This document shows, piece after piece, positions 4,612 through 22,031 of a stretch of 56,808 nucleotides of DNA (position 1 is its first letter; each line of letters begins with the position of its first letter). The stretch is taken from NCBI GenBank assembly GCA_913777025.1, contig CAJYQM010000321.1:1-56808 (forward strand). Reading direction: 5' to 3'. The notes under the pieces were generated by a model. The model made no database searches, was not told the origin of the DNA, and worked only from the letters and a program-made list of their open reading frames with translations. The stretch is from an uncultured Massilia sp. Lineage in GTDB: Bacteria; Pseudomonadota; Gammaproteobacteria; Burkholderiales; Burkholderiaceae_D. Position numbers and translations under genes: made by a program.

Positions 4612-4669
4612 GCGTCTCTCCTTGGGTACTGGCAGCGGGGTGGGCTGGCGCCTGGGGTTTAATAGTCAA

Positions 4670-4687
4670 GTAATGTCTTTGCATTAC
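4670..4687. repeat. Small inverted repeat in the TonB-receptor leader
   Basis: GTAATG and CATTAC arms with a six-base spacer sit in the AT-rich region upstream of the receptor gene. Possible operator; nothing further can be supported in 4612-4799. Confidence 0.25.
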
Positions 4688-4799
4688 GATATTTATATTT
4701 TCAAAGGTAAGCGCAGTGGCTTTGCACCATCCAATGAAAATTCCGGCGCTGAGTATAACTACAGGGAATATTTAGCTGAGGAAAAACTCGCCAAAACTA

Positions 4800-6581
4800 T
4801 CACCTGCCCTTGGAGGCGCGTGCTCTTTGCGCAACATCGACATCCAGGTAACGCCATTGCGTGAGTTCGACCGGGTGGCGCTTGTAGTTTTTCAGCCACG
4901 GTTGGCGGATATCGGCCGATTGCACCTGGGTCAGCGGCACCCAGGGGTTATAGGCGTGGATCAGCTGGTTCATTTCGAAGTACAGCTTCTGGCGTGCCGG
5001 ACCGTCCGGCAGCTGGCGCGCCTGTTCGTAACGTGTGTTGTAAGCCGGCAGGTCGAAGCGCGCATAGTTGGCGCGGCCCGCGTTCGGGCCGTACAGCAGC
5101 TGGTAGAAATTCTCGCCATCGGGGAAATCGGCGACCCAGTTACTTTCGAACATCTGCACCTTGCCAAGGCGCGACGCCTTGATGATCTCCGTCTTCTTGT
5201 CCGACTTGAACACCACGCGCAGACCAATCGCATTCAGGCACTTGCGCCACAATTCGTCGCGCAGGCGTCCGCTGACCGTCGCTTCGCTGCTCATCACTAG
5301 GGTCAACTGACTGCCGTCCGGCTGCCGGCGAAACCCATCCGCGTCGCGCTTGCCGTAACCGTGGCGGTCGAGCAGGGCATTCGCCAGCGCCGGATCGTAG
5401 GGTACGGGGCTGCGGTAGTTGGGGTCGTAGCCAAGCACGTTGGGCGGCAACGGCGACTCGGCCTTGATGGCGAAGCCCTTCTTCAGCAGCGCGATGTCTT
5501 CAAGACTGTTGTAGCTCATCGAGATCGCGCGGCGCAGGGCAATTTTCTCCTTGCCGTAACCGCCGACGACCGGGTCCTGCATGTTCATCCACATGTAATA
5601 AGTCTGCAGCACCGGGAAGCGGTAGAGTTCCATGCCGCGCGCGGCCAGTTCCGGCTTCAGCTTGCCGTTCTTGATGACCATGTCCGTCATCGATTCCGGC
5701 ACCTGCTCGAGGTAATCGTATTCGCCGTTGAGGAAACCCAGCATGCGGCCCTGGAATTCTTCGGCGATCTTGACTTCGACGCGGTCCACGCGCGGCAGCG
5801 GCTGCCCTTCCAGCGCGGCGCCGATCGCTTTATCTTGGGGGTTGCCGCCCGGCGTACCGTGGAACACGGCGGTCGAGGCCGGGTTCTTCAGCAACACGAT
5901 GCGGTCGCTGCGCTTCCAGTCACCCAGCATGAAGGGCCCGGTGCCGACCGGGTGGTTGCCGGCCTGGCCCGGATAGGCCTCGATCACCTCGCGCGCCACC
6001 ACGCCAGTGGCCGGGGTCGCCAGGTAGAACAGGAAATTGTTGTCGGGCTCGGCCAGGCGGATCCGCAGCGTGTAGCGGTCGAGTGCCTGCAGGCCGGGGA
6101 TCGCCGTGTCGACGCTGTATTTGTCCTTGAGCGCGCCATCGCCCAGCAGCTTGCCGTCGAACAAAAAGGACCAGGGCGATTTCAAGGCCGGGTCGTACAG
6201 GCGGGTGATGCTGTAGACGTAATCCCGGGCTGTGACTTCGCGCCGCTTGCCCTTGAATGCGGGATCGGGCGTGAAATAAATGCCCGGGCGGATGTGAAAG
6301 GTGTAGCTGCGCCCGCCATCCTCGATGGTGGGTAATTCAGTTGCGCTATTGCCCTGCAGCTTGAGTGGCCGCGCCAGGTAGTCGTAGCGCAGCAGCGGGT
6401 CGAACAGGTTTTCCAGCAGCGACAAGGTGGCCAGGTCGGACCCGACCGCGGGGTCCAGCCCGGCTTCGCTGGTGGACAGGAACATGTGCAGGACCTTGCC
6501 CTCCCCGGCCGGCGCGGCGGCCAGGGCGGGTAGTTGACACAGGGTGAACAGCAGGGCGGCGAAGGTGCGGCGAGTCGGCAT
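4800..6581 (-). CDS. Periplasmic peptide-type ABC substrate-binding protein (SBP_bac_5)
   Basis: A 593-residue extracytoplasmic solute-binding protein of the DppA/OppA/MppA family. A signal peptide covers about residues 1-22 (FAALLFTLCQLPALAAA). Family features include EAGLDPAVGSDLATLSLLEN near the N terminus, GTGPFMLGDWKRSD mid-protein and the MNMQDPVVGG/KIALRRAISMSYN region. No permease or ATPase genes are adjacent, so it is an orphan that must share a transporter, as MppA does with Opp in E. coli. The ATG has AGGA eight bases upstream. The gene diverges from the SpmAB-like gene. A murein-peptide ligand is plausible from context only. Confidence 0.88.
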   Translation of the reverse strand: MPTRRTFAALLFTLCQLPALAAAPAGEGKVLHMFLSTSEAGLDPAVGSDLATLSLLENLFDPLLRYDYLARPLKLQGNSATELPTIEDGGRSYTFHIRPGIYFTPDPAFKGKRREVTARDYVYSITRLYDPALKSPWSFLFDGKLLGDGALKDKYSVDTAIPGLQALDRYTLRIRLAEPDNNFLFYLATPATGVVAREVIEAYPGQAGNHPVGTGPFMLGDWKRSDRIVLLKNPASTAVFHGTPGGNPQDKAIGAALEGQPLPRVDRVEVKIAEEFQGRMLGFLNGEYDYLEQVPESMTDMVIKNGKLKPELAARGMELYRFPVLQTYYMWMNMQDPVVGGYGKEKIALRRAISMSYNSLEDIALLKKGFAIKAESPLPPNVLGYDPNYRSPVPYDPALANALLDRHGYGKRDADGFRRQPDGSQLTLVMSSEATVSGRLRDELWRKCLNAIGLRVVFKSDKKTEIIKASRLGKVQMFESNWVADFPDGENFYQLLYGPNAGRANYARFDLPAYNTRYEQARQLPDGPARQKLYFEMNQLIHAYNPWVPLTQVQSADIRQPWLKNYKRHPVELTQWRYLDVDVAQRARASKGR

Positions 6582-8016: not shown

Positions 8017-8034
8017 ATGTTTTTAAGGATGAGC

Positions 8035-9615
8035 ATGTTCCAACGTCGCCTTGCCACCCTCTCCTTCCTGCTGGCCGCCTGGCTGCCGGCCCACGCCCAG
8101 CTGCCCGAACCGGTGCTTGGCGCCCTGCGCAGCACGACGATCCCGGAAAGCGCGCTGAGCGTGGTGGTGTTGCGCGACAACCAGACCGTCCTGTCGCACC
8201 TGGCGGACCGCCCCACGCATCCGGCCTCGACCATGAAACTGGTGACGACGCTGGTCGCCCTGGAGACGCTGGGCCCGGTCTTCCGCGGCCGCACCGAGCT
8301 GCGCGGTACCGGCGAGATCCAGGGCGACACCCTCAAGGGCGACCTGATCCTGCGCGGCGGCGCCGACGCCGACCTGGACACCGAAGCGCTGACCACCATG
8401 CTGCGCAGCCTGCGCAACCAGGGCATCCGCAAGATCCAGGGCCACCTCGTGATCGACCGCCAGCTGTTCAACCCGGCGCGCGCCGACCTGGGCGTGCCGC
8501 CCTTCGACGAATCGCCCGATTCCTATTACAACGTCATCCCCGATGCCGCCCTGATCAACAAGAACATGCTGCAGCTGGACCTGCGCTCGACCGGCGCCGG
8601 TTTGAAGATCGCGGTGCAGCCGGAACTGCGGGACGTGAGCGTCACGTCCGAGATGAAGCTGGTGGGCGGTGACTGCGCCAACTGGGACAACGGCTGGCAG
8701 GCGCCGGAAGTCCGGACCCAAGGCCAGGCCGATGGCCGGATCAAGGTCGTGCTGCACGGAACCTTCCCGAAAAACTGCATTGCCAGTACCTCGATCAACG
8801 TGATCGACCGCCAGGCCTATGTCGACCACCTGCTGCGCACCACTTGGCACCAGCTGGGCGGCAGCATCGACGCCGACACCATCGAAGGCGCGACCCCGCC
8901 GGACGCGAAGCTGCTGGCCGCACACGTCGCGCGCGCGCTGCCGGAAGTCGTCCGCGACACCAACAAACCCTCGGACAACCTGCTGGCGCGCATCCTCTTC
9001 CTGAGCCTGGGCGCACTCGAAGCCGACCCGGTGCTGGGCAGCCGTCCGCTGCCCGGCGGGAGCGAGCCGACCCTGGCCCGTTCCGCCACCGTGGTGCGCA
9101 CCTGGCTGCGCGCCCACGGCATCGACGACACCGGCCTGGTCCTCGAAAACGGTTCCGGCCTGTCGCGCATCGAACGCGTGACGCCGGTGCAGCTGGCCGG
9201 CGTGCTGCTGGCCGGCCAGCGCAGCAACTGGGCGCCGGAATTCCAGGCCAGCCTGCCGATCGCCGGCGTCGACGGCACCCTGCGCCGCCGCCTGCAGAAC
9301 AGCCCGGCCGCGAGCCGCGCGCGCATGAAGACCGGCACGCTGCGCAACGTGGTCGCACTGGCCGGCTACGTGCCGGATGCGAGCGGCAAGCAGTGCATCG
9401 TCGTCGCCATGATCAATAGCGACCTGGTCAGCAACGGGCGCGGACGGCAGGTGCTCGATACCCTGGTCGACTGGGTCGCGCGCATGGAAGGCATGCCGGC
9501 GCTGGGGCCGACGCCGGCACCGGGGATGCCGATGACGGCGCCCGCGGCCCAGCCCATGCCCCCGCAGCCAATGGCACCGCAGCCGGCGCCTTCCCAGCCC
9601 GTACCCACGACGTGA
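8035..9615 (+). CDS. dacB: PBP4-type D-alanyl-D-alanine carboxypeptidase/endopeptidase
   Basis: A 526-residue serine peptidase of family S13 (PBP4), which trims the terminal D-Ala and cuts 3-4 crosslinks in the periplasm. The three active-site motifs are present: STMK at 65-68, SDN at 313-315 and KTG at 432-434. An N-terminal signal peptide ends near AHAQ. The last ~40 residues form a Pro/Met/Ala-rich tail beyond the catalytic domain, which is unusual. Start 8035 is chosen because AAGGA precedes it by about seven bases; in-frame ATGs at 8017 and 8029 are less well placed. It follows the SpmAB fusion by 18 bases. Confidence 0.9.
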   Translation: MFQRRLATLSFLLAAWLPAHAQLPEPVLGALRSTTIPESALSVVVLRDNQTVLSHLADRPTHPASTMKLVTTLVALETLGPVFRGRTELRGTGEIQGDTLKGDLILRGGADADLDTEALTTMLRSLRNQGIRKIQGHLVIDRQLFNPARADLGVPPFDESPDSYYNVIPDAALINKNMLQLDLRSTGAGLKIAVQPELRDVSVTSEMKLVGGDCANWDNGWQAPEVRTQGQADGRIKVVLHGTFPKNCIASTSINVIDRQAYVDHLLRTTWHQLGGSIDADTIEGATPPDAKLLAAHVARALPEVVRDTNKPSDNLLARILFLSLGALEADPVLGSRPLPGGSEPTLARSATVVRTWLRAHGIDDTGLVLENGSGLSRIERVTPVQLAGVLLAGQRSNWAPEFQASLPIAGVDGTLRRRLQNSPAASRARMKTGTLRNVVALAGYVPDASGKQCIVVAMINSDLVSNGRGRQVLDTLVDWVARMEGMPALGPTPAPGMPMTAPAAQPMPPQPMAPQPAPSQPVPTT

Positions 9616-10466: not shown

Positions 10467-10604
10467 GCGCACCTCCCTGAGTTTGGACTGTTACCCGTCC
10501 TGCATCGATGGTGCGATTTTCCGGTTGCGGATGCGGTGGAGACTGCGTTTGCTCAAGCGTGTGATGCAAGCGTCAGCGTGGCGCGACAGCGGCGTGGACT
10601 GGCT

Positions 10605-11276
10605 TCAGAGTACGCGGCGGAAGGTTTTACGTACCAGCTCGCGATCGCCGCAATCGAAGTGCCACCACTCGGTCTTGATGCCGACGAAGCCTGCCTGGAA
10701 CATGGTGTCGCGCAGCAGCTGGCGGTTGGCCACCTGGACGTCGCTCAGCGCGCCGGTGCGCAAAAAACCCTCTTCCAGCGCCGGATGCGACAACTCCGTC
10801 ATGTCGTCGAAGCCGGTGCCCATGTCGAGCTCGCGGCCCTGCTCGTCGAGCAGCGTGATGTCCAGCGCCATGCCGTAGGAGTGGATGGAGCCGCGCGCCG
10901 GATCGGCGAGGTAGAGGCGCAGACCGGTGCCGTCGAGCGCATCCCACAATTGCTGCTGGACGCGCTGCGGGCGCAGGGCGTCCAGCACCAATGCCGTATA
11001 ACCGGGCCGCGCGCGCGCCAGCCAGGCCACCGCCCGTTCCAGCGCGCTTGCCGCGTCGCGGTGCAGCCAGGCGCAGTCGTAGGGAGAATACAGGTCGCGG
11101 CCGACGAAATTGTTCGCCGTCGCATAGCGCAGGTCGACGGCGATGCCGGCGATGGTGGACAGGTGGCGGAATTCCGGGTCGCCGGCGATCTCCTCGCTGG
11201 CTATGCCCTCTCGCGGGCCGCCCTCTCGTGGGCCGCCCTCTCGTGGGCCGCCTTTTCGTGGACCGGACAAGCTCAT
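10605..11276 (-). CDS. ddpX: D-alanyl-D-alanine dipeptidase (VanX/DdpX family)
   Basis: A 223-residue zinc dipeptidase of family M15D, which splits D-Ala-D-Ala into two D-Ala. Zinc and catalytic residues are visible: SIHSYGMALD gives His132 and Asp139, and EWWHFD gives Glu203 and His206. Residues 5-24 are four tandem copies of GPR(K/E)G encoded by 15-base repeats, a feature I do not know from the family. The start overlaps the LysR stop in an ATGA, so translation is coupled. A longer upstream frame exists but lies entirely inside the lysR gene. No signal peptide is seen, so D-Ala-D-Ala is probably split in the cytoplasm. The product could feed the D-amino-acid dehydrogenase at 20781. Confidence 0.9.
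   Translation of the reverse strand: MSLSGPRKGGPREGGPREGGPREGIASEEIAGDPEFRHLSTIAGIAVDLRYATANNFVGRDLYSPYDCAWLHRDAASALERAVAWLARARPGYTALVLDALRPQRVQQQLWDALDGTGLRLYLADPARGSIHSYGMALDITLLDEQGRELDMGTGFDDMTELSHPALEEGFLRTGALSDVQVANRQLLRDTMFQAGFVGIKTEWWHFDCGDRELVRKTFRRVL
11205..11264 (-). repeat. 15-bp tandem repeat inside ddpX
   Basis: Four consecutive 15-base units encode GPRKG, GPREG, GPREG and GPREG. Copies are nearly identical at the base level, so the tract is probably recent and prone to slippage. Confidence 0.85.
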
Positions 11277-12178
11277 CGACATCCTTTTTCGATCAGGGCG
11301 CGCGCGGTGGCGCCGATGCAGTTGGCCAGTTCGCGCGCGGCGTGCGACAGCGGCGCGTGGCTGGCCGTCAGCAGGTACAGCTGGACCGGGATCGCCGGCG
11401 CCCACGGGCGGCATTGCACCTTGTCGCGCGCGGCCGATGCCGCCGTGAACGGATCGAGCACGGCGCTGCCGGCACCCGCCTCGACCAGCGAACGCGCGAT
11501 CTGGTAGGTCTGCACCACGGTGTGGAACACCGGATGCACGTCCTGGGCTTCGCAGGCGGCCACCACCATCTCGCCCAGCGGATCACGGTCGGCCAGGCCG
11601 ATCAGTTCGCCGGACAGCGCGCTGGGCGTGATCGGTTCGCGGCATTCCTCATCGTTCCAGGTGCCGGCCGGCGCCATCACCGTGAGCGTGCCCTGGGCGA
11701 TCGCCTCGGCCTCGATGCCGGGGTGGCGCGGGTCCTGCAGCGACAGGGCGAGATCCGCTTCGCCCAGGCGCAGCGCGTTGACGATCTCGGTGGTGTGGAA
11801 GGTCGCCAGTTCGCAGCGGGTCTGGGCGAAGCCGCGGCGCCAGTCGTTCAGGGCGGCGGGCAGGACGCTGATCGCGATGGTCGGCGTGGAGACCAGGCGC
11901 ACGGTCTCGCCGGCGCGGCTTTTCAGGCTGGCGGCCAGGCGGCGGATGCCCTGCAGGTCGCGGTTCAGCTTTTCGGTCTCGGCGAACAGGCGGTGCGCCT
12001 CGGGTTTGGGGTACAGCTTGCCGCGCACGCGCTCGAACAGCGGCATGCCCAGTTGCAATTCGGCGTGCTGCAGCACCTTGGTCACGGCCGGCTGGGAGAT
12101 GTGGAGCACCTGGGCGGCGCCGCTGATGGTACCCACCTGCATGATGGCATGGAAGACTTCGATATGGCGCAGACGCAT
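11273..12178 (-). CDS. LysR-family transcriptional regulator
   Basis: A 301-residue LysR-type regulator. The winged helix-turn-helix is at about residues 1-60 (FHAIMQVGTISGAAQVLHIS, QPAVTKVLQHAE), followed by the linker helix and a periplasmic-binding-protein-like effector domain (about 90-295). The start MRLRHIEVFH at 12178 is preferred to an 11-residue longer frame because it matches the family N terminus. It sits 61 bases after the amidase gene and overlaps ddpX by four bases, so it is embedded in the operon it probably controls rather than divergent from it. The effector is unknown; a muropeptide, amino sugar or D-Ala derivative is a reasonable guess from context. Confidence 0.9.
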   Translation of the reverse strand: MRLRHIEVFHAIMQVGTISGAAQVLHISQPAVTKVLQHAELQLGMPLFERVRGKLYPKPEAHRLFAETEKLNRDLQGIRRLAASLKSRAGETVRLVSTPTIAISVLPAALNDWRRGFAQTRCELATFHTTEIVNALRLGEADLALSLQDPRHPGIEAEAIAQGTLTVMAPAGTWNDEECREPITPSALSGELIGLADRDPLGEMVVAACEAQDVHPVFHTVVQTYQIARSLVEAGAGSAVLDPFTAASAARDKVQCRPWAPAIPVQLYLLTASHAPLSHAARELANCIGATARALIEKGCR

Positions 12179-12239
12179 CGCATTGATTCCTAAGCTTGAA
12201 CCGTCAAGCATATCGGAAAAGCGGCGCTGCGCAAAAGCA

Positions 12240-13214
12240 TCACTGCTGCACCGGCACCGGCGGTGTTGCGGGAATGACAGTCGGGCTGTCCGGCGGCGTG
12301 GTCGGCAGCGGCGTCGGCTGTGCGGGCGGCGTCGGCTGGGCAGGTTCCACAGGCGGCGCCGGCTGGGCCGGCGGCGGCAGGACCGGCGCGGTCATCACCG
12401 GCGCGGCCGGTACCGGCGGCAGCGGGCCGCGCGGATTGGTCAGCGCTTCCAGCAGCGCGGCGGTCTGGACGTCCGGCATGCCGTCGATGTTGGCCGGCCG
12501 GTATTTCATCTGGAAGGCCGACAGGACGGTGCGGGTCTGCTCGTCCAGCACGCCGGACTCGACCAGGCCGTAGCCCCAGGTGTGCAGCTTCTTCTGGAAC
12601 CAGGCGACGTCCGGCAGCTGGGTCTGGAAGATCGGGTAGAGCGCGACCACGCGGTTGGCGTCCGGCCAGGTCACCAGGCCGGCGGCGGCCAGTTGCCGCC
12701 ACGGGAACATCGGGCCCGGGTCTTGCTTGCGCTGGGGCGCGATGTCGCTGTGGCCGAGCACGTTTTCCGGCGCGATGTGGTGGCGCGTGACGATGTCGCG
12801 CACCAGCGGGATCAGGGCGTCGATCTGCGATTGCGGGAAGGGTGCGTAGACGCGGCCGTTCGGCGTGTCCTTCCAGCCCGGGTTGACGATCTCGATGCCG
12901 ATCGAGCTGTTGTTCAGCTGGGTGAAATTCTTCCAGCTCGAGTTACCGGCATGCCAGGCGGCGTTCTTTTCGTCGACCAGGTTGTAGATGACGGGACGCG
13001 GGTCGTCGGTGACCAGGTAATGGGCGCTGACCTCCTGCTGGGTCAGCGTCGCCAGCGACGACGGCTTGTCGCCCACGGTGTAGTGCAGCACCAGGAAGCG
13101 CGCGCGGCTGCTCTGGCCCTTGGCGGTATAGGTGTGGTCGTATTGCGGACCGGTCGGGCCGGTGGCGCAGCCGGCCAGCAGGGCCAGCATCAGGGTGGCG
13201 GCGAGGATTTTCAT
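12240..13214 (-). CDS. amiD: AmiD-like N-acetylmuramoyl-L-alanine amidase lipoprotein
   Basis: A 324-residue zinc amidase (Amidase_2) that cuts between MurNAc or anhydroMurNAc and the stem peptide. The lipobox LAGC near residues 13-16 predicts a lipoprotein. Zinc ligands are His44 (LHYT), His155 (GHSD) and Asp165 (KQDPGP); Glu108 in IGIEIVN is likely catalytic. A peptidoglycan-binding domain follows (about 200-265), then a Pro-rich tail of about 50 residues. E. coli AmiD has the same amidase plus binding-domain plan without the long tail. The start overlaps the kinase stop by four bases (ATGA), indicating coupled translation. Confidence 0.92.
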   Translation of the reverse strand: MKILAATLMLALLAGCATGPTGPQYDHTYTAKGQSSRARFLVLHYTVGDKPSSLATLTQQEVSAHYLVTDDPRPVIYNLVDEKNAAWHAGNSSWKNFTQLNNSSIGIEIVNPGWKDTPNGRVYAPFPQSQIDALIPLVRDIVTRHHIAPENVLGHSDIAPQRKQDPGPMFPWRQLAAAGLVTWPDANRVVALYPIFQTQLPDVAWFQKKLHTWGYGLVESGVLDEQTRTVLSAFQMKYRPANIDGMPDVQTAALLEALTNPRGPLPPVPAAPVMTAPVLPPPAQPAPPVEPAQPTPPAQPTPLPTTPPDSPTVIPATPPVPVQQ

Positions 13215-14158
13215 GTTTTATTCTTGGGTTCGGGTTGGGAGGCCATGCGGGCGGCGGCATGGTGCGCACCGCCGGCGGTCTGGGTCAGCGGCGTGGCGGG
13301 CGGCAGCGCGGCCCGCATCGCCGCCATGATCATCGGATGCAGTTCGCTGGCGCGCCCGGACAGCGCCACCGGGCGCGGGCCGAAGCGCGTGAGCAGGGCT
13401 TGCGCCAGGCGCGCCAGTTCGCGGCCGGCGCCCTGCAGGATGGCGGCGGCGACAGGATCGCGTTCGGCGCTGGCGGCCACGGCCAGCGCCAGCTTGCCGA
13501 CGGCGCCGCGTTCCTGGCCGTAGATGAACTGGCGAGAGTATGCCCAGTCGTCGCCGCCGACGTAGTCGAACACGGCCTGCGCCATGGGCGAGCCATGCCA
13601 GCTGCCGGGTTGTTCATCCTCGCGGCGCCAGATGTGGCGCAGCGCTTCCTTCGCGATCCAGAAGCCGCCGCCGCCATCGTCCAGCACCACGCCGCGGCCG
13701 CCGGCGCGGTGGAACACGCCATCGGCATCGATGAAGGCACCGATCGAACCGGTGCCGGCATAGACCAGGTAGCCCTCGCCGGGCGCGAAGCTGGCGCGGT
13801 AGGCGATTACCATGTCGCTGCAGAAGTGGACTGCTTGCGGGTCCAGGTGCAGCAGTTCGGCCAGCCAGCGCTGCAGCAATTCGCTGTCGCCGCCGAAGCC
13901 GGTGAGGCCGGCCTGGACGCGTCCGGGCATCCCGTGCGGCAGTACCTGCGCCGCCAGTTCGGTGAAGGTGGCGCGCACGGTATCGCGGCCCGATGCGTTA
14001 CCCATCTGCAGCGCGGACAGGCCGGCGACCGTGCCTTCGGCCACGATGGCCCCGCCGGGTGCGGCCAGCGCCCAGCGGGTCTGGGTGCCGCCGGCGTCGA
14101 TGCCCAGGCCGAGGCCGGCACCGGACCCGGCCATGTGTTCGGGTTGTGAGGGAATCAT
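13211..14158 (-). CDS. BadF/BadG-type N-acetylhexosamine kinase
   Basis: A 315-residue ASKHA-fold sugar kinase. The phosphate-1 loop GLGIDAGGTQTRWALA is near the N terminus, with GYLVYAGTGSIGAF and GGRGVVLDDGGGGFWIAKEA mid-protein. BadF/BadG/BcrA-type kinases include eukaryotic GlcNAc kinase and the bacterial MurK GlcNAc/MurNAc kinases. Placed between a glycosidase and an amidase and in one run with murQ, it most likely phosphorylates MurNAc and/or GlcNAc to give the MurQ substrate. Start 14158 is chosen over 14134 on conservation grounds; neither has a strong ribosome binding site. Substrate preference is inference. Confidence 0.82.
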   Translation of the reverse strand: MIPSQPEHMAGSGAGLGLGIDAGGTQTRWALAAPGGAIVAEGTVAGLSALQMGNASGRDTVRATFTELAAQVLPHGMPGRVQAGLTGFGGDSELLQRWLAELLHLDPQAVHFCSDMVIAYRASFAPGEGYLVYAGTGSIGAFIDADGVFHRAGGRGVVLDDGGGGFWIAKEALRHIWRREDEQPGSWHGSPMAQAVFDYVGGDDWAYSRQFIYGQERGAVGKLALAVAASAERDPVAAAILQGAGRELARLAQALLTRFGPRPVALSGRASELHPMIMAAMRAALPPATPLTQTAGGAHHAAARMASQPEPKNKT

Positions 14159-14243
14159 GATCGAAGCGAAGTGTACGCCCTTCGCCCCGCTGTGCGCACA
14201 TGAATGCTCACCGTATGTGCATGACCGGATGTTATGGTTTCCA

Positions 14244-15854
14244 TCATGCCGCGGCTTTTCTCCAGGCCTGCACCCGCGCGCTCTCGTTGCCGAGGCGGTC
14301 GACCGCGCTGACGAACACGGCATCCGGGCTGCCCAGCCTGGCGTCGTCCGTGACCGCCCAGTCCACGCGCGAGGCCGGCGCCGTCGCGAAGCGCCATTCG
14401 CCGCCGTAGCGCGACCAGATCGCATAGGTGGCGTTGGCCTTGCCCGCCGCCAGTTTCAGCAGCACGGCATTGCCCTTGCGGGTGGCCGCGACCGAAGGCG
14501 CGCCCGGGGCCGTGTTGCCGAGCCAGGGCGTGGCCGGGACCAGGGCCGGCGACGAATAACAGCTGCTGCGCAGCTGGTCGAAGATGCCCTTGCGGTTCTG
14601 CATCAGCGCGGCCATGCTGAAGTGCACGTGACCGCCGGCATTCGGACGCGAGCGCGTGACGCCGATCTGCTCGATGATTTCCTGCGGCTGGTAATCCTTG
14701 ACCGGCGCGCCGATGCGGCTGGTGTACAGGCCCGGCCACAAGTGGCGGCCGCGGCTGTTCTGCGCGATCCAGTAGTCGAGCAGCACGTCGTAGGCCTGGC
14801 CCGGCTGGCGGATCGACCAGTACAGCTGCGGCGTGAAGTAGTCGAGCCAGCCGTTCTGCAGCCAGGTCTCGGCGTCGGCGTACAGCTTGTCGTATTGCGA
14901 AAAACCGTTGATGCCGCGCGGGCGGCGGTCCGGGCGGCCCAGGCCGAAGGGACTGATGCCGAAGCGCACCCAGCTCTTTTCGCGGTGGATCTCTTCGTAC
15001 AGCGCCTCGATCAGGCGGTTGACGTTCTGGCGGCGCCAGCCCGCGCGGTCCAGCTTGCCGCCACCGGCCAGGTAGCGCTGCCAGGATGGGTCGTCCGGAA
15101 ACTCCAGCTCGCCCTTTCCGGTCTTGCCCTCCAGCGCCGCGCCTTCCGCGCCGGTGGCGCCGGCGGCCTCGATCGGATAGGGATAAAAATAATCGTCGAT
15201 GTGGACGCCGTCGATGTCGTAGCGGCGCACCACGTCCAGTACCACGTCCAGCGTCTGCTTGACCGCGCTTTCCTCGCCCGGGTCCATCCACTGGTATTTA
15301 CCGTAAGTCTTGACGGCCGCCGGATTGGTGCGCGTGATGTGGTTTGGCGCGGCCGGCGAGCGGGCGCCGGCGTTGCGGGCGCGGTAGGGGTTGAACCAGG
15401 CGTGCAGCTCGAGCCCGCGCGCGTGGGCCTGCGTGATCCAGAATTTCAGCGGGTCGTACCAGGGTTGCGGCGCCTGGCCCTGCAGCCCGGTCAGGTATTC
15501 CGACCAAGGCTCGATCTTCGACGCGTAGATGGCGTCGGCCGAGGGGCGCACCTGCAGCACGATCGCATTCAGGTTCAGGGCGCGGGCGCGATCGAGGATG
15601 GCGATGGCCTCGGCCTGCTGCTTGTCGGCGCTCAGGTTCGGTTTGCTGGGCCAGTCGATGTTGGCCACCGTCGAGACCCAGGCGGCGCGGAATTCGCGCG
15701 GCGCCGGCGGCGGCAGGTCGCCGCCCTTGCCGCCGCCGGTGGTGGCCACCACGCCCGGCTGCGTCGTCGTACAGGCCGAGAACAGGCCACTCATCGCCAT
15801 CGCACCGGCGACGCCGGCAAGCGCGAATGCGCGCCGTTTTTGATCAGGTTGCAA
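14244..15854 (-). CDS. digH: DigH/YddW-like glycosyl hydrolase lipoprotein (GHL10, DUF187)
   Basis: A 536-residue family GHL10 (DUF187) protein. The N terminus carries a hydrophobic leader and a lipobox-like FSAC. The (beta/alpha)8 domain spans about residues 50-430 and includes REFRAAWVSTVANIDWPSK, LQVRPSADAIYAS, HAWFNPYRA, GVHIDDYFYPYP and DYFTPQLYWS; the paired Asp of HIDDYFYP is the likely catalytic acid region. A fibronectin-like C-terminal domain follows. E. coli DigH of this family cuts denuded glycan strands lacking stem peptides. Its place between a NagX-like protein and a sugar kinase supports the same role here. The gap to the upstream gene is 33 bases. Confidence 0.85.
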   Translation of the reverse strand: MQPDQKRRAFALAGVAGAMAMSGLFSACTTTQPGVVATTGGGKGGDLPPPAPREFRAAWVSTVANIDWPSKPNLSADKQQAEAIAILDRARALNLNAIVLQVRPSADAIYASKIEPWSEYLTGLQGQAPQPWYDPLKFWITQAHARGLELHAWFNPYRARNAGARSPAAPNHITRTNPAAVKTYGKYQWMDPGEESAVKQTLDVVLDVVRRYDIDGVHIDDYFYPYPIEAAGATGAEGAALEGKTGKGELEFPDDPSWQRYLAGGGKLDRAGWRRQNVNRLIEALYEEIHREKSWVRFGISPFGLGRPDRRPRGINGFSQYDKLYADAETWLQNGWLDYFTPQLYWSIRQPGQAYDVLLDYWIAQNSRGRHLWPGLYTSRIGAPVKDYQPQEIIEQIGVTRSRPNAGGHVHFSMAALMQNRKGIFDQLRSSCYSSPALVPATPWLGNTAPGAPSVAATRKGNAVLLKLAAGKANATYAIWSRYGGEWRFATAPASRVDWAVTDDARLGSPDAVFVSAVDRLGNESARVQAWRKAAA

Positions 15855-15887
15855 TTCACTACTCCGTTATCTTGCGTCGACAAGGTC

Positions 15888-17030
15888 TCAGACCTTGACG
15901 AACCATTTTTTGCGCCACATGGCCCAGGCCAGCGCGAACATGCAGGCGTCGAACAGCAGCGCATGCAGCAGCGACGTATTGACGGCGCCGATCGGCAAGG
16001 CGGCGATCGGCGCGTACAACATGCTGCCGAGCGAATGCAGGCTGCCGTCCGGCCGGGCGAATTTTACATAGCCCAGCATCTTGGCGACGAAACCGGACAC
16101 CGCAAAGATGAACAGCGCATTCATCCCGTAGATGACGAAAGGCCGCATCCAGCGCGCCGCGGCCGTGCGCAAGCCCGCGCTCGGGTTCGCGTCCAGCAGC
16201 CAGTAGAAGCCCGAGAACACGATCGCCGCCCAGCCCGTCATCCACACGCAGAACGACGGCGTCCACAGGCTTTTATTGATGGGCATGAGCATGGTATCCA
16301 AAATCGCGCCGACACCCAGGCACGCCAGGCCGGCCAGCAGCAGCCACAGGGCTTGCACCCTGCGTTCGACCGCGGACATCAGCCATTGTCCCGCCAGCAC
16401 GCCGAACAGCTGGCTGCACAGCGCGGGCAGGGTCGACACCAGCCCTTCGGGATCCCAGGTCTTGGCCTGCACCCACAGATGCTTGCCGAGCAGCGTGCGG
16501 TCGACCCAGGCGCCGAAGTCCCGGCCCGGCTCCAGCACGCCGGCACCGATGCCCGGCACCGGCACCCACAGCATCAATACGCTGTACAAGGTGAGCAGGG
16601 CGGCGATGATCGCCAGCTGGGCGCGCCAGCCGCAATAGACGACGATGGGCGCGGCCAGCAGCGTGCACAGGGCGATGCGCTGCAGGACGCCGGGAATGCG
16701 CACCTTGTCGAAATTGAAATAGGGAATCAGGTTCAGCAAGAAGCCGATCAGGAAGATCAGCGCCGCCCGCCTGGCCAGCTTCAGCAGCAGCGCGGGCTTG
16801 TCGGCGCCGCCGGCCGCCAGGCGGCCCAGCGACAGCGCCATCGCCACGCCGCCGATGAACAGGAAGAAGGGGAAGATGCAGTCGGTGAAGGTCCAGCCAT
16901 GCCACTTGGCGTGTTCGAGCGGACCGTAGAGGTGGCTCCAGTCGCCCGGGTTATTCACCAGCACCATGGCGGCGATGGTGAAACCCCGGAAGGCGTCGAG
17001 CGAGACCAGCCGTGCCGGGGCGTCGCGCAT
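15888..17030 (-). CDS. nagX: HGSNAT/NagX-like (DUF5009) membrane protein
   Basis: A 380-residue membrane protein with roughly ten predicted helices, related to NagX/DUF5009 and human heparan-alpha-glucosaminide N-acetyltransferase. Diagnostic segments are LVSLDAFRGFTIAAMVLVNN near residue 8, LEHAKWHGWTFTDCIFPFFL from residue 38, and RIPGVLQRIAL. From memory, His40 in EHAKWHG aligns with the acetyl-transferring His of HGSNAT. Bacterial relatives lie in GlcNAc or MurNAc utilisation loci and are proposed to transport or acetylate amino sugars at the inner membrane. Only three bases separate it from the AmpG-like gene, so co-expression is very likely. Transport versus acetylation is undecided. 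Confidence 0.8.
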   Translation of the reverse strand: MRDAPARLVSLDAFRGFTIAAMVLVNNPGDWSHLYGPLEHAKWHGWTFTDCIFPFFLFIGGVAMALSLGRLAAGGADKPALLLKLARRAALIFLIGFLLNLIPYFNFDKVRIPGVLQRIALCTLLAAPIVVYCGWRAQLAIIAALLTLYSVLMLWVPVPGIGAGVLEPGRDFGAWVDRTLLGKHLWVQAKTWDPEGLVSTLPALCSQLFGVLAGQWLMSAVERRVQALWLLLAGLACLGVGAILDTMLMPINKSLWTPSFCVWMTGWAAIVFSGFYWLLDANPSAGLRTAAARWMRPFVIYGMNALFIFAVSGFVAKMLGYVKFARPDGSLHSLGSMLYAPIAALPIGAVNTSLLHALLFDACMFALAWAMWRKKWFVKV

Positions 17031-17033
17031 CGC

Positions 17034-18299
17034 TTATTTCTTCCCGAACTCGGGATCGATCCTGACCAGCGCCGCCATGATGAAGGCGGGAATGGTCGCC
17101 AGGCAGACCCACACGAAGAAGTGCTGGTAGCCGATCATTTCCTGCAGCTTGCCGCTCCACATGCCGGGCACCATCATCCCCAGCGCCATCAGGCCGGTGC
17201 AGATCGCGTAGTGCGCGGTCTTGTAGGGGCCGTCGGCAATCATGATCATGTACATCATCATCGCGGTGAAGCCGAAGCCGTAGCCGAACTGCTCGATGGC
17301 GAGGAAGGCCGAGATCACGCGCATGTCCTGCGGCTGGGCCGAGGACAGGTAGACGAACACCAGGTCGGGCAGGTGCACGGCGAACACCATCAGCCACAGG
17401 CAGCGCTTCAGGCCCCAGCGCGAGATCAGGTAACCGCCGAACAGGCCGCCGACCGTCAGGGCGATGATGCCGATGGTGCCGTAGGCCAGGCCGTACTGCA
17501 CGGTGGACAGGCCCAGCCCGCCCTTCTCGACCGGGTCCTTCAGGAAGGGCGCGACCAGTTTCAGGAGCTGCGATTCGCCCAGGCGGAAGGTCAGTATGAA
17601 ACCGAGGATCAGCCAGATGTCGCGCTTGGCGAAGAAGGTGGCGAAGGTCTGGCCGAAGCCGGCCACCAGGTTGCCGCCTTCGACCGCCTTGCGATCCGCA
17701 TCCGGACGCGGCAGGATGGCCTGGTGCCAGGCGAAGAAGCCGAAGAACAAGCCGGCCAGCACGAAGAACACGATGGCCCAGGCTTGCCGCACGTCGCCGA
17801 GGCTGGTGGCGAGATAACCGGCCAGCATCACCAGCGGCCCCTGCCCCGCCAGCGTGGCCAGGCGGTAGAAGGTGGAGCGCACGCCGACGAAGGCCGCCTG
17901 CTGCTGCTGGCGCAGGCCGAGCATATAAAAGCCGTCGGCCGAGATGTCATGCGTGGCCGAGGCGAAGGCCATGATCCACATGACGCCCAGGCTGACGACG
18001 AAATAGGCGGGCAGGTGCAGCGTCGCCCCGACCGCGCCGAGGCTGGCGGCCAGCACCAGCTGCAGGGACACGGTCCAGCCGCGCTTGGTGCCGAACAAAT
18101 CGACCAGCGGCGACCACAGGGGCTTGATCACCCAGGGCAGATACAACAGGCTGGTGTAGAAGGCGATGTCGGTGTTGGACACGCCCATGTCCTTGTACAT
18201 GACCACCGACAGGTAATTGGCGACGATGTACGGGATCGCCTGGCCGAAATAGAGCGAGGGCACCCACAGCCACGGGTTCTTTGCTTGCGATGTTTGCAT
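17034..18299 (-). CDS. ampG: AmpG-like muropeptide permease (MFS)
   Basis: A 421-residue major-facilitator protein with about twelve hydrophobic segments. AmpG-family signatures include LWVPSLYFGQAIPYIVANYL at the N terminus, LPWVIKPLWSPLVDLFGTKR around residues 53-72, and AFASATHDISADGFYML. AmpG imports GlcNAc-anhydroMurNAc with or without peptides using the proton gradient. At 421 residues it lacks the extra C-terminal helices of E. coli AmpG (about 490 residues) and resembles the shorter AmpG-like permeases. It begins 38 bases after murQ. ATG 18299 has a weak AAAGAG upstream. Transport of free disaccharide rather than muropeptide is possible. Confidence 0.87.
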   Translation of the reverse strand: MQTSQAKNPWLWVPSLYFGQAIPYIVANYLSVVMYKDMGVSNTDIAFYTSLLYLPWVIKPLWSPLVDLFGTKRGWTVSLQLVLAASLGAVGATLHLPAYFVVSLGVMWIMAFASATHDISADGFYMLGLRQQQQAAFVGVRSTFYRLATLAGQGPLVMLAGYLATSLGDVRQAWAIVFFVLAGLFFGFFAWHQAILPRPDADRKAVEGGNLVAGFGQTFATFFAKRDIWLILGFILTFRLGESQLLKLVAPFLKDPVEKGGLGLSTVQYGLAYGTIGIIALTVGGLFGGYLISRWGLKRCLWLMVFAVHLPDLVFVYLSSAQPQDMRVISAFLAIEQFGYGFGFTAMMMYMIMIADGPYKTAHYAICTGLMALGMMVPGMWSGKLQEMIGYQHFFVWVCLATIPAFIMAALVRIDPEFGKK

Positions 18300-18337
18300 A
18301 ACTCTTTCGTGGTCGGCAGGCACCGCGCCGGGGCGAT

Positions 18338-19219
18338 TTACACGGCCAATGCCGCGCGCACGCTGCCGCGCGTCGTCTCCAGCAGCGCCTGCGCCTGCTC
18401 GACCGGGATGTTCTTGGACAAGGCCACGATCGCGACCTTGACGTGGTAGCCGCACTGTTCCAGCACCGTGCGCGCCTGCGCCTCGTCGGCGCCGGTGGCG
18501 AAGGTCGTCAGGCGGATCGCGCGGCGCACCAGCTTGGCGTTGGTCGCCTTCAAGTCTACCATCAGGTTGCCATAAACCTTGTTCAAACGCACCATCAAGG
18601 CACTCGAAAAGGTGTTCAAGGCGATCTTTTGCGAGGTGCCTGCTTTCAGGCGGGTGCTGCCGGAGATCGCTTCCGGGCCGGTGTCCAGGGTGATGCCGAT
18701 TTCGGCCTCGCCCGCGACCGGGGCATCCGGGTTGTTGGCGAAGCCGATGGTCAGCGCCCCTGCCGCGCGCGCGGCGCGCAGCGCGCCCAGCACGTAGGGT
18801 GTGGCGCCCGAGGCGGCGATGCACAACACCACGTCGTCCGGGCCGACGTTCACGTCGCGTACATCCTGCGCGCCCTGCTCGATGTCGTCTTCCGCGCCTT
18901 CCACCGCGACGAACATGGCATCCTTGCCGCCGGCCAGCAGCGCCACCGCGCGCCCGTGCGGCCAGGAAAAGGTCGGGTACAGCTCCACGCTGTCCAGCAC
19001 GCCCAGGCGGCCCGAGGTGCCGGCTCCCACGTAGACCAGGCGCCCGCCCGCTTCCATGCGCGGCAGCGCGGCGGTGACGGCGGCGGCGATGCGCGGCATG
19101 GCGGCGCGCACGGCTTCGACGGCCTTGAACTGGTCGTCGACCAGCACATTCACCAGTTCGGCGGTCGGGTATTGGTCGAGGGCGGCGTGTTGCGAGGCAG
19201 GCGTTTCGGTATTCAGCAT
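18338..19219 (-). CDS. murQ: N-acetylmuramic acid 6-phosphate etherase
   Basis: A 293-residue SIS-domain lyase that removes D-lactate from MurNAc-6-P to give GlcNAc-6-P. The phosphosugar-binding loop GAGTSGRLGVLDSVELYPTF is at 65-84, with the likely catalytic Glu79; the second acidic motif VAVEGAEDD contains Glu107. The C-terminal helical part keeps LMVDLKATNAKLVRRAIRL. The family length is about 298, so it is complete. ATG 19219 has no ribosome binding site and lies only a few bases after a candidate transcription start, so the mRNA may be leaderless. It is the first gene of the minus-strand wall-salvage run. Confidence 0.95.
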   Translation of the reverse strand: MLNTETPASQHAALDQYPTAELVNVLVDDQFKAVEAVRAAMPRIAAAVTAALPRMEAGGRLVYVGAGTSGRLGVLDSVELYPTFSWPHGRAVALLAGGKDAMFVAVEGAEDDIEQGAQDVRDVNVGPDDVVLCIAASGATPYVLGALRAARAAGALTIGFANNPDAPVAGEAEIGITLDTGPEAISGSTRLKAGTSQKIALNTFSSALMVRLNKVYGNLMVDLKATNAKLVRRAIRLTTFATGADEAQARTVLEQCGYHVKVAIVALSKNIPVEQAQALLETTRGSVRAALAV

Positions 19220-19229
19220 GATGACCAGT

Positions 19230-19257
19230 TTAATACCAATGCAGAAGAGACTGTCAT
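19230..19257 (-). promoter_or_regulatory. Candidate promoter of the murQ run
   Basis: On the minus strand ATGACA (19257-19252) and TATTAA (19235-19230) are separated by 16 bases. The predicted start would fall around 19222, three bases from the murQ ATG. Confidence 0.35.
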
Positions 19258-19295
19258 GAAAGGATCGTCCGCAGCCATGCCGTAAAGTTATGCAT

Positions 19296-19324
19296 CCGGC
19301 AAGGGCCGGCATTTGCCGCGGCAA
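19296..19324. promoter_or_regulatory. Paired palindromes in the divergent murQ-hydrolase region
   Basis: CCGGC-AAGG-GCCGG occupies 19296-19309 and the perfect 12-base palindrome TTGCCGCGGCAA occupies 19313-19324. They lie between two divergent genes, a typical place for an operator. Confidence 0.35.
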
Positions 19325-19374
19325 GGCGCAGTCCGTATCCTCGCTTGCATCATACTGACGATTGCGGAGACACG

Positions 19375-20670
19375 ATGAACCAAGGCAGACGCAGCATGCT
19401 GGGCCTGGTCCTGCTGGGGGCGGTGCAGCCGTTGCCGGGCGCGGCGCGCGGCGGTACGGCGCGCGCGGCACTGGACCGGGAACTGGCAACCATCGCGCAG
19501 GACCCGGCCTGCGAACTGGCCAGCCTGTCGGTGCTGGCGATCCGCGACGGGCAGGTCAGCTACGAAGGCCAGTTCGGGCGCCGCAGCATCGGTCCCGACC
19601 GCCCGGCCGACGCCCATACCTTGTTCCGCATCGCCTCGGTTTCCAAGATGATGACCACGCTCGGCCTGATGCGCCTGCTGGAAGCCGGCAAGGTCGACCT
19701 CGACGGCGACGTCTCGCGCCGCCTCGGTTTCAGGCTGCGCAATCCGCACTTCCCGGACCGGGTCATCACGCTGCGCAGCCTGCTCACCCACACGTCCTCG
19801 CTGCGCGACGATGCCGGTTATGCCTTCGGCATCGAGGTCGCACTGAAGGATGTGCTGACACACGGCGACGGCAAGATGTGGGCGGCGAATGCCGCGCCGG
19901 GCGACTACTTCAGCTACTGTAACCTCGGCTGGGGCGTGATCGGCACCGTGATGGAAGCCGTGACCGGCGAGCGCTTCGACCGCCTGATGCGGCGCCTGCT
20001 GCTCGATCCGCTCGGCCTGCAGGGCGGCTACGACCCGTCCGCCTTCACCCCCGGCGAGCTGGCGAACCTGGCCACGCTGTACCGCAAGCGCACGGTCGAT
20101 ACCGAAGTCTGGGACCCATCCGGACCCTGGATCGCCCAGGCCGACGATGTGCTGCACAAACGGCCCGCGCCGCCGCCCGGCATCGACCGCTACCTCATCG
20201 GCAGCAACGCCACGCCATTCAGCCCGACCGGCGGCCTGCGCATTTCCGCGCGCGGCCTGGGGGTCGTCATGCGCATGCTGTTGCAGGGCGGCGTGCATGC
20301 AGGCAGCCGGCTCTTGACACCGGCCACGCTCGACCGGATGTTCAGCCGCCAGTGGACCCATGATGGCGCCAACGGCGATACCCTGGACGGCTTCTACCGG
20401 GCCTGGGGCCTGGGCAACCAGCAATTCCCCCATGATCCGCTCACGGGCGGCGACCTGGCCGGGCACCAGGGCGATGCCTATGGCCTGGTCTCGGCCTTCC
20501 TGATGGACCGCGCCAGGCGCAGCGGCATGGTGATGCTGGTGGGCGGCACCTCGACCGATCCGTTCACGCCAGACAACCGCGGCGCGCAGTCGGCCATGCC
20601 GCGCTTCCAGGAACGCATCCTGGCGGCGCTGTACCGGCGCGCGATCCTGGTGCGCCCGGGCGCATCGTAA
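19375..20670 (+). CDS. Serine hydrolase, class C beta-lactamase/PBP-like fold
   Basis: A 431-residue beta-lactamase-family (S12/AmpH/EstB-like) hydrolase. SVSK gives the Ser-x-x-Lys nucleophile pair in LFRIASVSKMMTT, YCN in FSYCNLGWG is the Tyr-x-Asn motif, and GHQGDAYG occupies the KTG position. The N-terminal leader ends near PGAARGG, suggesting export. The ATG at 19375 has GGAG six bases upstream; a ten-residue longer frame lacks support. Divergent from murQ across 155 bases, it could be a DD-peptidase or AmpH-like enzyme acting on wall peptides. Esterase or beta-lactamase activity cannot be excluded. Confidence 0.82.
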   Translation: MNQGRRSMLGLVLLGAVQPLPGAARGGTARAALDRELATIAQDPACELASLSVLAIRDGQVSYEGQFGRRSIGPDRPADAHTLFRIASVSKMMTTLGLMRLLEAGKVDLDGDVSRRLGFRLRNPHFPDRVITLRSLLTHTSSLRDDAGYAFGIEVALKDVLTHGDGKMWAANAAPGDYFSYCNLGWGVIGTVMEAVTGERFDRLMRRLLLDPLGLQGGYDPSAFTPGELANLATLYRKRTVDTEVWDPSGPWIAQADDVLHKRPAPPPGIDRYLIGSNATPFSPTGGLRISARGLGVVMRMLLQGGVHAGSRLLTPATLDRMFSRQWTHDGANGDTLDGFYRAWGLGNQQFPHDPLTGGDLAGHQGDAYGLVSAFLMDRARRSGMVMLVGGTSTDPFTPDNRGAQSAMPRFQERILAALYRRAILVRPGAS

Positions 20671-20780: not shown

Positions 20781-22031
20781 ATGCAACAAGTAATCGTGAT
20801 CGGCGGTGGTGTCGTCGGCCTGGCTTCGGCCTGGTGGCTGCTCGAGGCAGGTTACCGGGTCACGCTGCTCGAACGCGCACCACAAGTGGGCACCGGTACC
20901 AGCTACAGCAACGGCGGGCAGCTCAGTTACCGTTACGTCTCGCCACTCGCGGATGCCGGCGTGCCGCTGAAGGCGCTGAAATGGCTGTTCCAGGAACACG
21001 GCCCGCTGCGCTTCAAGCCGCAGCTGGACCCGCACCAGTGGCGCTGGCTGGCCGCCTTCCTGGCCAACTGCCGCGCCGATGCCAACCGCAAGACCACCAA
21101 TAAACTGCTGCAGCTGGGCGAACTGTCGCGGCGCGGCATGACCGAACTCGAGATGACGGTGCCGCCGGCATCCTTCCAGTGGCGCGACGCCGGCAAGCTG
21201 GTGGTCTACCGCAGCCGCAAGGCCTTCGAGGCCGCCACCACAAAATTGGCATCGGCGGACAGCGCCGGCACCGGCCAGGTCTGGAGCGCGGCCGAGTGCG
21301 TGGCGCGCGAACCGGCGCTGGCCGCCATCGAAGACCGCCTGGCCGGCGGCATCTACAACAGCGGCGAAGCGGTGGCCGACTGCTACGCCTTTTGCGTCGC
21401 GCTGGCCGAGCGCATCCGCGCCCATCCGCGCTTCCAGGGTTTCGTGCAGGGCGAAGCGACGCGCTTGCACACCGCTGCCGGCCGTATCGCCGGCCTGGAA
21501 ACCACGGCGGGACCGCTCGCCGCCGACGCCTACGTGCTCGCCGCCGGCATGCAGAGCCGCACGCTGGCCCTCGGCGCCGGCATCTCGCTGCCGATCTATC
21601 CGTTGAAGGGCTACAGCCTGAGCGCGCCGATCCGTCTCGACGACGTCGCGCCGGAAATCAGCGTCACCGACTTCGAGCGCAAGGTGCTGTACGCCCGCAT
21701 CGGCGACACACTGCGGGTGGCGGCCATGGTCGACATGGTGGGCGAAGACCTGCGCCTGGACCCACGCCGCCTGGCCAGCCTGACGCGCCAGGTGCGCGAG
21801 ACCATGCCGCGCGCCGCCGACTACACCCACATCACGCCCTGGGCCGGGCTGCGGCCTGCAACGCCGAACAGTGCGCCGATCATCGGCGCGACCCGGTATC
21901 CGAATCTGTGGCTGAACGTGGGGCATGGGCCGCTGGGCTTCACGTTTGCCTGCGGGACGGCGAGTTTGCTCACCAGCCTGATGCGCGGAGAGGCAACCCC
22001 GTTCTCCCTCGACGGGCTGACGCTGGCCTAG
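20781..22031 (+). CDS. dadA: D-amino-acid dehydrogenase
   Basis: A 416-residue FAD-dependent DadA-like oxidoreductase, which oxidises D-amino acids (typically D-Ala) to keto acids at the inner membrane and passes electrons to quinone. The Rossmann FAD motif VIVIGGGVVGLASAWWLLEA opens the protein, TSYSNGGQLSYRYVSPLADA follows, and the C-terminal TPWAGLRPATPNSAPIIGAT and NVGHGPLGFTFACG segments close the FAD site. Length is typical. No strong ribosome binding site is seen. It could consume D-Ala released by DacB, LdcA and DdpX. No alanine racemase gene (dadX) is adjacent, unlike the E. coli dadAX operon. Confidence 0.9.
   Translation: MQQVIVIGGGVVGLASAWWLLEAGYRVTLLERAPQVGTGTSYSNGGQLSYRYVSPLADAGVPLKALKWLFQEHGPLRFKPQLDPHQWRWLAAFLANCRADANRKTTNKLLQLGELSRRGMTELEMTVPPASFQWRDAGKLVVYRSRKAFEAATTKLASADSAGTGQVWSAAECVAREPALAAIEDRLAGGIYNSGEAVADCYAFCVALAERIRAHPRFQGFVQGEATRLHTAAGRIAGLETTAGPLAADAYVLAAGMQSRTLALGAGISLPIYPLKGYSLSAPIRLDDVAPEISVTDFERKVLYARIGDTLRVAAMVDMVGEDLRLDPRRLASLTRQVRETMPRAADYTHITPWAGLRPATPNSAPIIGATRYPNLWLNVGHGPLGFTFACGTASLLTSLMRGEATPFSLDGLTLA

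Follow-up and report, generated by a model that had tools for sequence, protein, structure and literature searches.

A putative periplasm-first peptidoglycan recycling operon in Massilia and the paired absence of canonical AmpG and AmpD

Eight adjacent genes of an uncultured Massilia sp., at positions 10605–19219 of the stretch analysed here, are read as an operon for the recycling and salvage of peptidoglycan in which the periplasmic steps come first (“denude first, import later”), a reading to which we assign a probability of roughly 0.6. The stretch, referred to below as the window, is a contig of 56,808 nucleotides (contig 321 of a source assembly of 4.73 Mb in 542 contigs, 83.5% complete). 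The pathway displaced appears to be the canonical AmpG/AmpD pair. Both proteins belong to the textbook scheme of Gram-negative wall recycling, in which the muropeptides passing through them act as signals of wall damage and induce AmpC-type beta-lactamases. The eight genes belong together beyond chance, as their order and strand repeat in related genomes, and the single functional theme that a preliminary description of the window, made from the sequence letters alone, had seen in them is supported.

All eight genes lie on the minus strand where that description had placed them, with the spacing and the two overlaps that it gave. Read 5′ to 3′ on that strand, the order is murQ, ampG-like, nagX-like, digH-like, BadF kinase, amiD, lysR and ddpX; from murQ on, the successive gaps are 38, 3, 33 and 85 bases, then a 4-base ATGA overlap between kinase and amiD, 61 bases, and a second 4-base ATGA overlap between lysR and ddpX. 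We infer that they are transcribed together. Pfam gives family support for the identity of all eight. The curated cut-off of NCBIfam is passed by MurQ alone, the others being relatives rather than proven members of the families named, and the DigH-like protein has no NCBIfam model.

18338..19219, minus strand: MurQ, N-acetylmuramic acid (MurNAc) 6-phosphate etherase (TIGR00274, 310.8 bits against a cut-off of 302; solved MurQ 4s12, E 1.1e-81)
17034..18299, minus strand: AmpG-like permease of the major facilitator superfamily (MFS), diverged from canonical AmpG (TIGR00901, 168.9 bits, below the cut-off of 350)
15888..17030, minus strand: NagX-like transmembrane acetyltransferase (HGSNAT_cat, PF07786; NagX_SO_3504, 187 bits, below the cut-off of 480)
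14244..15854, minus strand: DigH-like GHL10 glycan-cleaving enzyme, putative lipoprotein (TTG start; PF02638, 199.5 bits; N-terminus with LFSAC)
13211..14158, minus strand: BadF-type sugar kinase, proposed MurNAc 6-kinase (PF01869)
12240..13214, minus strand: AmiD/AmpDh2-type amidase with a peptidoglycan-binding domain, putative lipoprotein (LAGC; PF01510, PF01471)
11273..12178, minus strand: LysR-type regulator (PF00126, PF03466)
10605..11276, minus strand: DdpX-like D-Ala-D-Ala dipeptidase, with no evident signal peptide by hydropathy (PF01427; PRK10178, 155 bits, below the cut-off of 176)

The amidase is 45% identical to Escherichia coli AmiD, its nearest solved structure is AmpDh2 (4bpa, E 1.7e-88), and against the curated model of cytoplasmic AmpD it reaches 91 bits, below the cut-off of 143. 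The DdpX-like protein shares 40% identity with E. coli DdpX. For the DigH-like protein, identity to E. coli DigH is 33% over 421 aligned positions, and the only solved-structure match is Cwp19 (5oq2, E 4.6e-71).

A scan of other genomes with the kinase gave 39 loci (numbered with L), one of which, L061 from Bacillota, had no match to the operon queries at E 1e-10 and was excluded from the counts. The remaining 38 comprise 29 from Massilia and nine from Telluria, Herbaspirillum, Rugamonas, Duganella (two), Pseudoduganella, Janthinobacterium and two unplaced assemblies. In this neighbourhood comparison, which the preliminary description had suggested, the gene set is kept, recurring in order and strand among the 38. 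A 44-locus set was formed by adding six stretches from further genomes, with loci cut at their ends included and with L058 and L093 belonging to one genome. It holds relatives of AmiD in 44 loci, of the AmpG-like permease in 43, DigH in 42, MurQ in 41, DdpX in 39, LysR in 34 and NagX in 31, and the AmpG-like permease, a NagX/MurT-like protein, the BadF kinase and MurQ occur jointly in the window and in 31 of the 44. Gene order is rearranged in five more distant genomes (L087–L091). One of these, L091, holds between its ampG-like gene and murQ (3743–6085) a LysR relative (PRK11013, 457 bits against 288) beside a decarboxylase of the diaminopimelate/ornithine/arginine family, hinting at diaminopimelate use. 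L023 and L024 are different contigs under the same assembly name, each with the kinase and neighbours; L023 is 96–100% identical to the window across its 3.6 kb, and that assembly may be a mixture of two strains or hold two copies. At a threshold of E 1e-45 the kinase profile found only the genome of the window among 369 genomes of the class, weaker relatives not being listed.

These loci were chosen by the kinase and their counts are silent on genomes without it, for which reason a sample of 79 genomes from the GTDB family of the window (numbered with G; overlapping the 38 loci in at least five) was used. The operon kinase is present in 19 of them (E 1e-20) and absent from 60. MurQ is found in 18 of the 19 kinase genomes vs none of the 60 others, and GHL10 in all 19 at 171 bits or more, the 60 holding two partial matches (85 and 60 bits, above the Pfam cut-off). 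The distribution of the canonical pair is the reverse: AmpG passes its cut-off in 4/19 kinase genomes vs 53/60 others and AmpD in 4/19 vs 59/60, the sole AmpD-less genome among the 60 being 68% complete. Both are missing from the identical 15 kinase genomes. The four keepers (G005, G048, G070 and G040) have the two genes on separate contigs or at distances of megabases, so that their matched absence is not accounted for by linkage. Kept and absent states both occur within genera g4, g6 and g40, and on a tree built from the kinase and MurQ well-supported (starred) branches impose a minimum of three changes of the trait. This tree cannot separate loss from regain; the pattern is read as repeated loss because nearly all other genomes of the family hold both genes. 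In the open-licence literature, among the matches listed, no paper describes these bacteria as having lost AmpG and AmpD.

Several observations weigh against the proposed displacement. When the labels on the tree were shuffled, 119 of 500 draws required no more changes than the real labels, so that clade clustering is not demonstrated, and the Fisher tests (p about 1e-11 for AmpD and about 8e-8 for AmpG) take no account of kinship among related genomes and serve as a guide only. G005, G048 and G070 have the kinase, MurQ, DigH, AmiD and the AmpG-like permease yet keep canonical AmpG and AmpD too. The genome of the window is 83.5% complete, so its own lack of the pair is weak when taken alone. 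AnmK occurs in all 19 kinase genomes, that of the window included (and in 56/60 others), so anhydro products still arise, and MurU above cut-off occurs in 17/19 (59/60 others), so the route through MurNAc 1-phosphate may remain. Two genomes, G019 and G027, have the operon and no MurU match over the cut-off, and may have lost that route.

Part of this evidence also serves a different account, in which the operon is nutritional and directed at the peptidoglycan of foreign or dead cells, and the missing AmpG and AmpD are a separate lineage trait. Nearby genes for a TonB receptor, a family-5 periplasmic binding protein (SBP5), PBP4, DadA and an S66 protein suggest uptake from outside, the kept AnmK and the MurU of 17/19 would leave recycling of the own wall possible, and all 19 kinase genomes fall in one GTDB family. 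It fares less well with two unlinked genes that are gone from exactly the same 15 genomes, both states being found in three genera, and with 60 kinase-less genomes in which AmpD is missing just from the one that is 68% complete. We consider it unlikely, if deserving of some weight, and prefer the recycling and salvage operon.

Canonical NagZ (about 360 bits or more) is in none of the 19 kinase genomes vs 48/60 others, weaker NagZ-family matches are in all 19, and the match in the genome of the window is a diverged piece below the curated cut-off, cut by the contig end. Two ideas were tried here and rejected: a tie between loss of canonical NagZ and the operon, as 12/60 kinase-less genomes lack it as well, and an exported NagZ, as none of the diverged NagZ-like proteins examined whose start is clear (L081, L082, L083, L095) has an evident signal sequence. 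A two-domain NagZ-family enzyme of about 500 amino acids is found in L081, L082, L095, L097, L100 and L101.

The preliminary description had noted AnmK and NagZ as absent. Neither is in the window; both families are in the genome, NagZ as the diverged piece just mentioned. It had further supposed that the kinase replaces AnmK by using hydrolysed MurNAc from a DigH-type hydrolase. A MurNAc kinase would take the hydrolysed sugar, and E. coli DigH is termed a glucosaminidase or muramidase (PMC12288456), which suits such a supply, whereas Cwp19 as a GHL10 enzyme has been demonstrated to be a lytic transglycosylase (PMC6016235). With AnmK present in this genome and in every other kinase genome, replacement is highly improbable and the claim is given up; the operon kinase possibly works beside AnmK. 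A separate arrangement is seen in L092 (2902–7268, genome G045), where genes for a sodium:solute symporter and a GntR-UTRA regulator precede a second MurQ and, next to it, a second AnmK, and where a long gene lying upstream matches the TonB receptor in part; the set has the look of an independent operon for the uptake of (anhydro)MurNAc.

Judged from its sequence and its genomic company, the operon kinase is probably a MurNAc 6-kinase, because a second BadF kinase is present in all 19 kinase genomes (PF01869 search) and N-acetylglucosamine (GlcNAc) seems to have its own kinase there. In 15/19, no more than about 7 kb separates this second kinase from the diverged NagZ; the kinase is away from the NagZ match in G005, G048 and G072, and in G000 both are on short contigs. 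One such nag locus, L100, the one gene set of these loci scored with NCBIfam, contains a NagK-like kinase, GntR, NagA (over cut-off), a NagB-II-like protein, a two-domain NagZ (212 vs 207 bits), an AmpG-like MFS permease and a NagX paralog. It could be held instead that the operon kinase is itself a GlcNAc or glucosamine kinase for GlcNAc freed by NagZ, AnmK alone feeding MurQ. Its sole NCBIfam match is indeed the GlcNAc kinase NagK (SO3507 type; 61 bits, below the cut-off of 370), Asn precedes the catalytic Asp in about half of its relatives, a feature tied to other sugar kinases (PMC10465942), and Clostridium MurK is dual-specific (PMC5790795). Yet the kinase of L100 is a far better NagK match (180 bits against the same cut-off), and it is the operon kinase, not AnmK, that MurQ accompanies, since AnmK is in 56/60 kinase-less genomes and MurQ in none. 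We therefore regard a GlcNAc kinase as quite unlikely and keep to MurNAc 6-phosphorylation as the probable function.

Residues around the active site were compared with Tannerella forsythia MurK. Asp115 and Asp161 of the operon kinase are invariant in a 22-row alignment and match, by GTGS spacing, the catalytic Asp (D95) and the anomeric-site Asp (D141) of MurK. In MurK the lactyl pocket is shaped by S133-P134-L135 and T94 (PMC10465942); at positions 94 and 133–136, by the same spacing, the window kinase has the small S114 and G153-G154-R155, with a bulky Arg. The motif GGRG stands at this position in 44/44 operon kinases, and among seven other BadF kinases compared six have GGWG and one SGWG, the six examined from nag loci all reading GWG there. 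As a hypothesis only, Arg155 could pair with the lactyl carboxylate. Telling against a MurNAc-specific signature, GGRG is found in a Sulfolobus hexokinase and GGWG among MurNAc-active kinases (Clostridium MurK, MurNAc/GlcNAc kinase 8zo3), and the substrate cannot be read from this motif. As to gene integrity, kinase matches are split in G040 and G018, and one in-frame TGA occurs in G067; G040 (contig 35; L058 and L093) has no MurQ and keeps canonical AmpG and AmpD. A third BadF-type kinase is encoded on contig 102 of the genome of the window (L102, 6883–7848), in a stretch resembling a separate sugar locus.

Other wall genes lie on both sides of the eight-gene run, and the finding of the preliminary description had left out those concerned with peptides:

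8017..9615, plus strand: PBP4/DacB-type D,D-carboxypeptidase/endopeptidase (TIGR00666, 233.6 bits against a cut-off of 107.8)
4800..6581, minus strand: family-5 (peptide-type) periplasmic binding protein, SBP5 (PF00496)
1834..4611, minus strand: TonB-dependent receptor (PF00593, PF07715)
654..1724, minus strand: S66 L,D-carboxypeptidase with a twin-arginine translocation (Tat)-like start, SRRRFGALL (PF02016, PF17676)
19345..20670, plus strand: serine beta-lactamase-fold protein, weakly AmpH-like (PF00144; best PRK10662 AmpH, 59 of 266 bits)
20781..22031, plus strand: D-amino acid dehydrogenase DadA (PRK00711, 443 bits against a cut-off of 383)

The left flank also holds a Gate-domain membrane protein; on the right, the beta-lactamase-fold and DadA genes are divergent from the run. 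Flanks were compared over L024–L060 and L087–L093, many of which end at 10 kb. SBP5 has a relative in 27/44 loci, including all five rearranged ones (L087–L091), and the TonB receptor in 17/44. The S66 gene has one match in 44, most loci stopping short of that position. Directly downstream of ddpX and on the strand of the run, a gene at 9666–10472 with a lipoprotein-like start has a relative in 21/44 loci and matched no Pfam or NCBIfam family.

The proposed route takes its compartments from the signal-like starts of the proteins. In the periplasm, the AmiD/AmpDh2-type amidase would remove stem peptides and the DigH-like enzyme would cleave the bare glycan, whereupon the AmpG-like permease of the operon would bring in peptide-free disaccharides. 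A diverged two-domain NagZ, encoded elsewhere, would split these in the cytoplasm. The BadF kinase would phosphorylate MurNAc at C6, and AnmK, encoded elsewhere, would take anhydroMurNAc. MurQ would then convert MurNAc 6-phosphate to GlcNAc 6-phosphate and D-lactate, with NagA and NagB-II completing the pathway. A single permease could feed both kinases, by analogy with T. forsythia AmpG, for which uptake of peptide-free GlcNAc-MurNAc and GlcNAc-anhMurNAc is reported (PMC7670621). The peptides would be dealt with by PBP4, the exported S66 carboxypeptidase, the SBP5 protein, DdpX and DadA. With the peptides removed outside, AmpD would be left without substrate; because no peptide-bearing molecule need enter, canonical AmpG and cytoplasmic AmpD would be dispensable, hence repeatedly absent.

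NagX would act as an accessory, since some operons are without it: it would carry out periplasmic N-acetylation of free amino sugars ahead of import. His40 of the NagX-like protein aligns with residue 297 of human HGSNAT, the catalytic histidine (PMC9007349), a match that fits such a predicted acetylation. A distant relationship of NagX to TfMurT is stated in the same source, and MurT is placed in the sodium symporter superfamily (PMC5790795); NagX and MurT may not be equivalent. NagX as an essential importer was considered and thought unlikely, the gene being missing in operons such as L029, L034, L044, L050, L051 and L055, with the NagX paralog of L100 as a limit on this exclusion.

A wider proposal follows, which we hold tentatively, at slightly less than even odds: that in the Massilia group an operon combining an AmpG-like permease of its own with a periplasmic amidase, a GHL10 enzyme, a MurNAc kinase and MurQ displaced the AmpG-AmpD route several times; that, as peptides are removed before import, no AmpR-type anhydromuramyl-peptide signal enters the cytoplasm; and that the kinase arose from a GlcNAc kinase via changes in the lactyl pocket. 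If true, a group repeatedly without AmpG and AmpD shows that a recycling pathway can bypass the peptide step in the cytoplasm, and provides a natural test of the need for the muropeptide signal. The kinase, the AmpG-like permease and the DigH-like enzyme are open to direct assay.

Upstream of the run a short conserved element was located:

19224..19239, minus strand: 16-base element TTGGTATTAAACTGGT, directly upstream of murQ

The 16-base element TTGGTATTACACTGGT, from which the window copy is one base off, lies upstream of murQ in 31/38 loci (L023–L060) at three mismatches or fewer (23 exact, four with one, two with two and two with three), and two further three-mismatch matches fall elsewhere in the same loci. 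A genome-wide search found a single exact copy in 8/9 genomes, always beside murQ, and none in G018; it also gave two one-mismatch matches away from murQ, and a reversed-sequence control gave one match. The element contains TTACACT, which could be a -10 box, and may be a promoter, an operator or both. It was not found in the uncut loci without lysR (L044, L050, L051, L055, L056, L058), which come from related genomes. Over 10400–19500, a sigma-70-like consensus scan found no promoter, against 0.8 expected from shuffled sequence; terminator-like sites numbered 10 vs 5.4 expected, and the four that lie on the operon strand all fall within genes. A GntR motif is present in 22/44 loci, mostly just before murQ.

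In the AmpG-NagZ-AmpD pathway of E. coli and Pseudomonas, disaccharides are imported and pass through NagZ and AnmK, then MurQ (E. coli) or MurU (Pseudomonas). The Massilia-group route resembles it in the proposed disaccharide import, NagZ, AnmK and MurQ or MurU, and differs in that amidase and glycan enzyme lie in the operon with signal-like starts and that canonical AmpG and AmpD are absent in 15/19. Within the same group, the nag loci (L097–L101, L103) are related to the operon through paralogs, in L100, of the kinase (30% identity), NagX (33%) and the MFS permease (39%); unlike the operon, L100 has NagA, NagB-II, GntR and NagZ, with no MurQ, DigH or AmiD match in the stretches examined. 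Agrobacterium, with its YejBEF-YepA recycling, is likewise a lineage without AmpG that uses another importer; it keeps AmpD and imports peptide-bearing muropeptides (PMC9790009), whereas here AmpD is missing and the proposed importer is an MFS permease.

As the preliminary description had surmised, no operon of this exact combination was found described in the open-licence literature, among the matches listed. The nearest described system is the T. forsythia ampG-ybbC-murT-murK-murQ operon, and we would call the Massilia run a variant of such operons. The T. forsythia genes from ampG to murQ (Tanf_08345–08385) form one transcript by reverse-transcription PCR (PMC5388701). Both systems bring together an AmpG-like permease, a BadF-family kinase, MurQ and a transporter-like membrane protein (PMC5388701, PMC7670621), the MurNAc 6-kinase role being proposed in the present case. 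The T. forsythia operon instead holds ybbC, a glycosyltransferase and other genes (PMC5388701, PMC7670621), while the Massilia run adds the GHL10/DigH enzyme, a periplasmic amidase, DdpX and LysR, in a host that, unlike T. forsythia, is a Massilia-like proteobacterium retaining AnmK.

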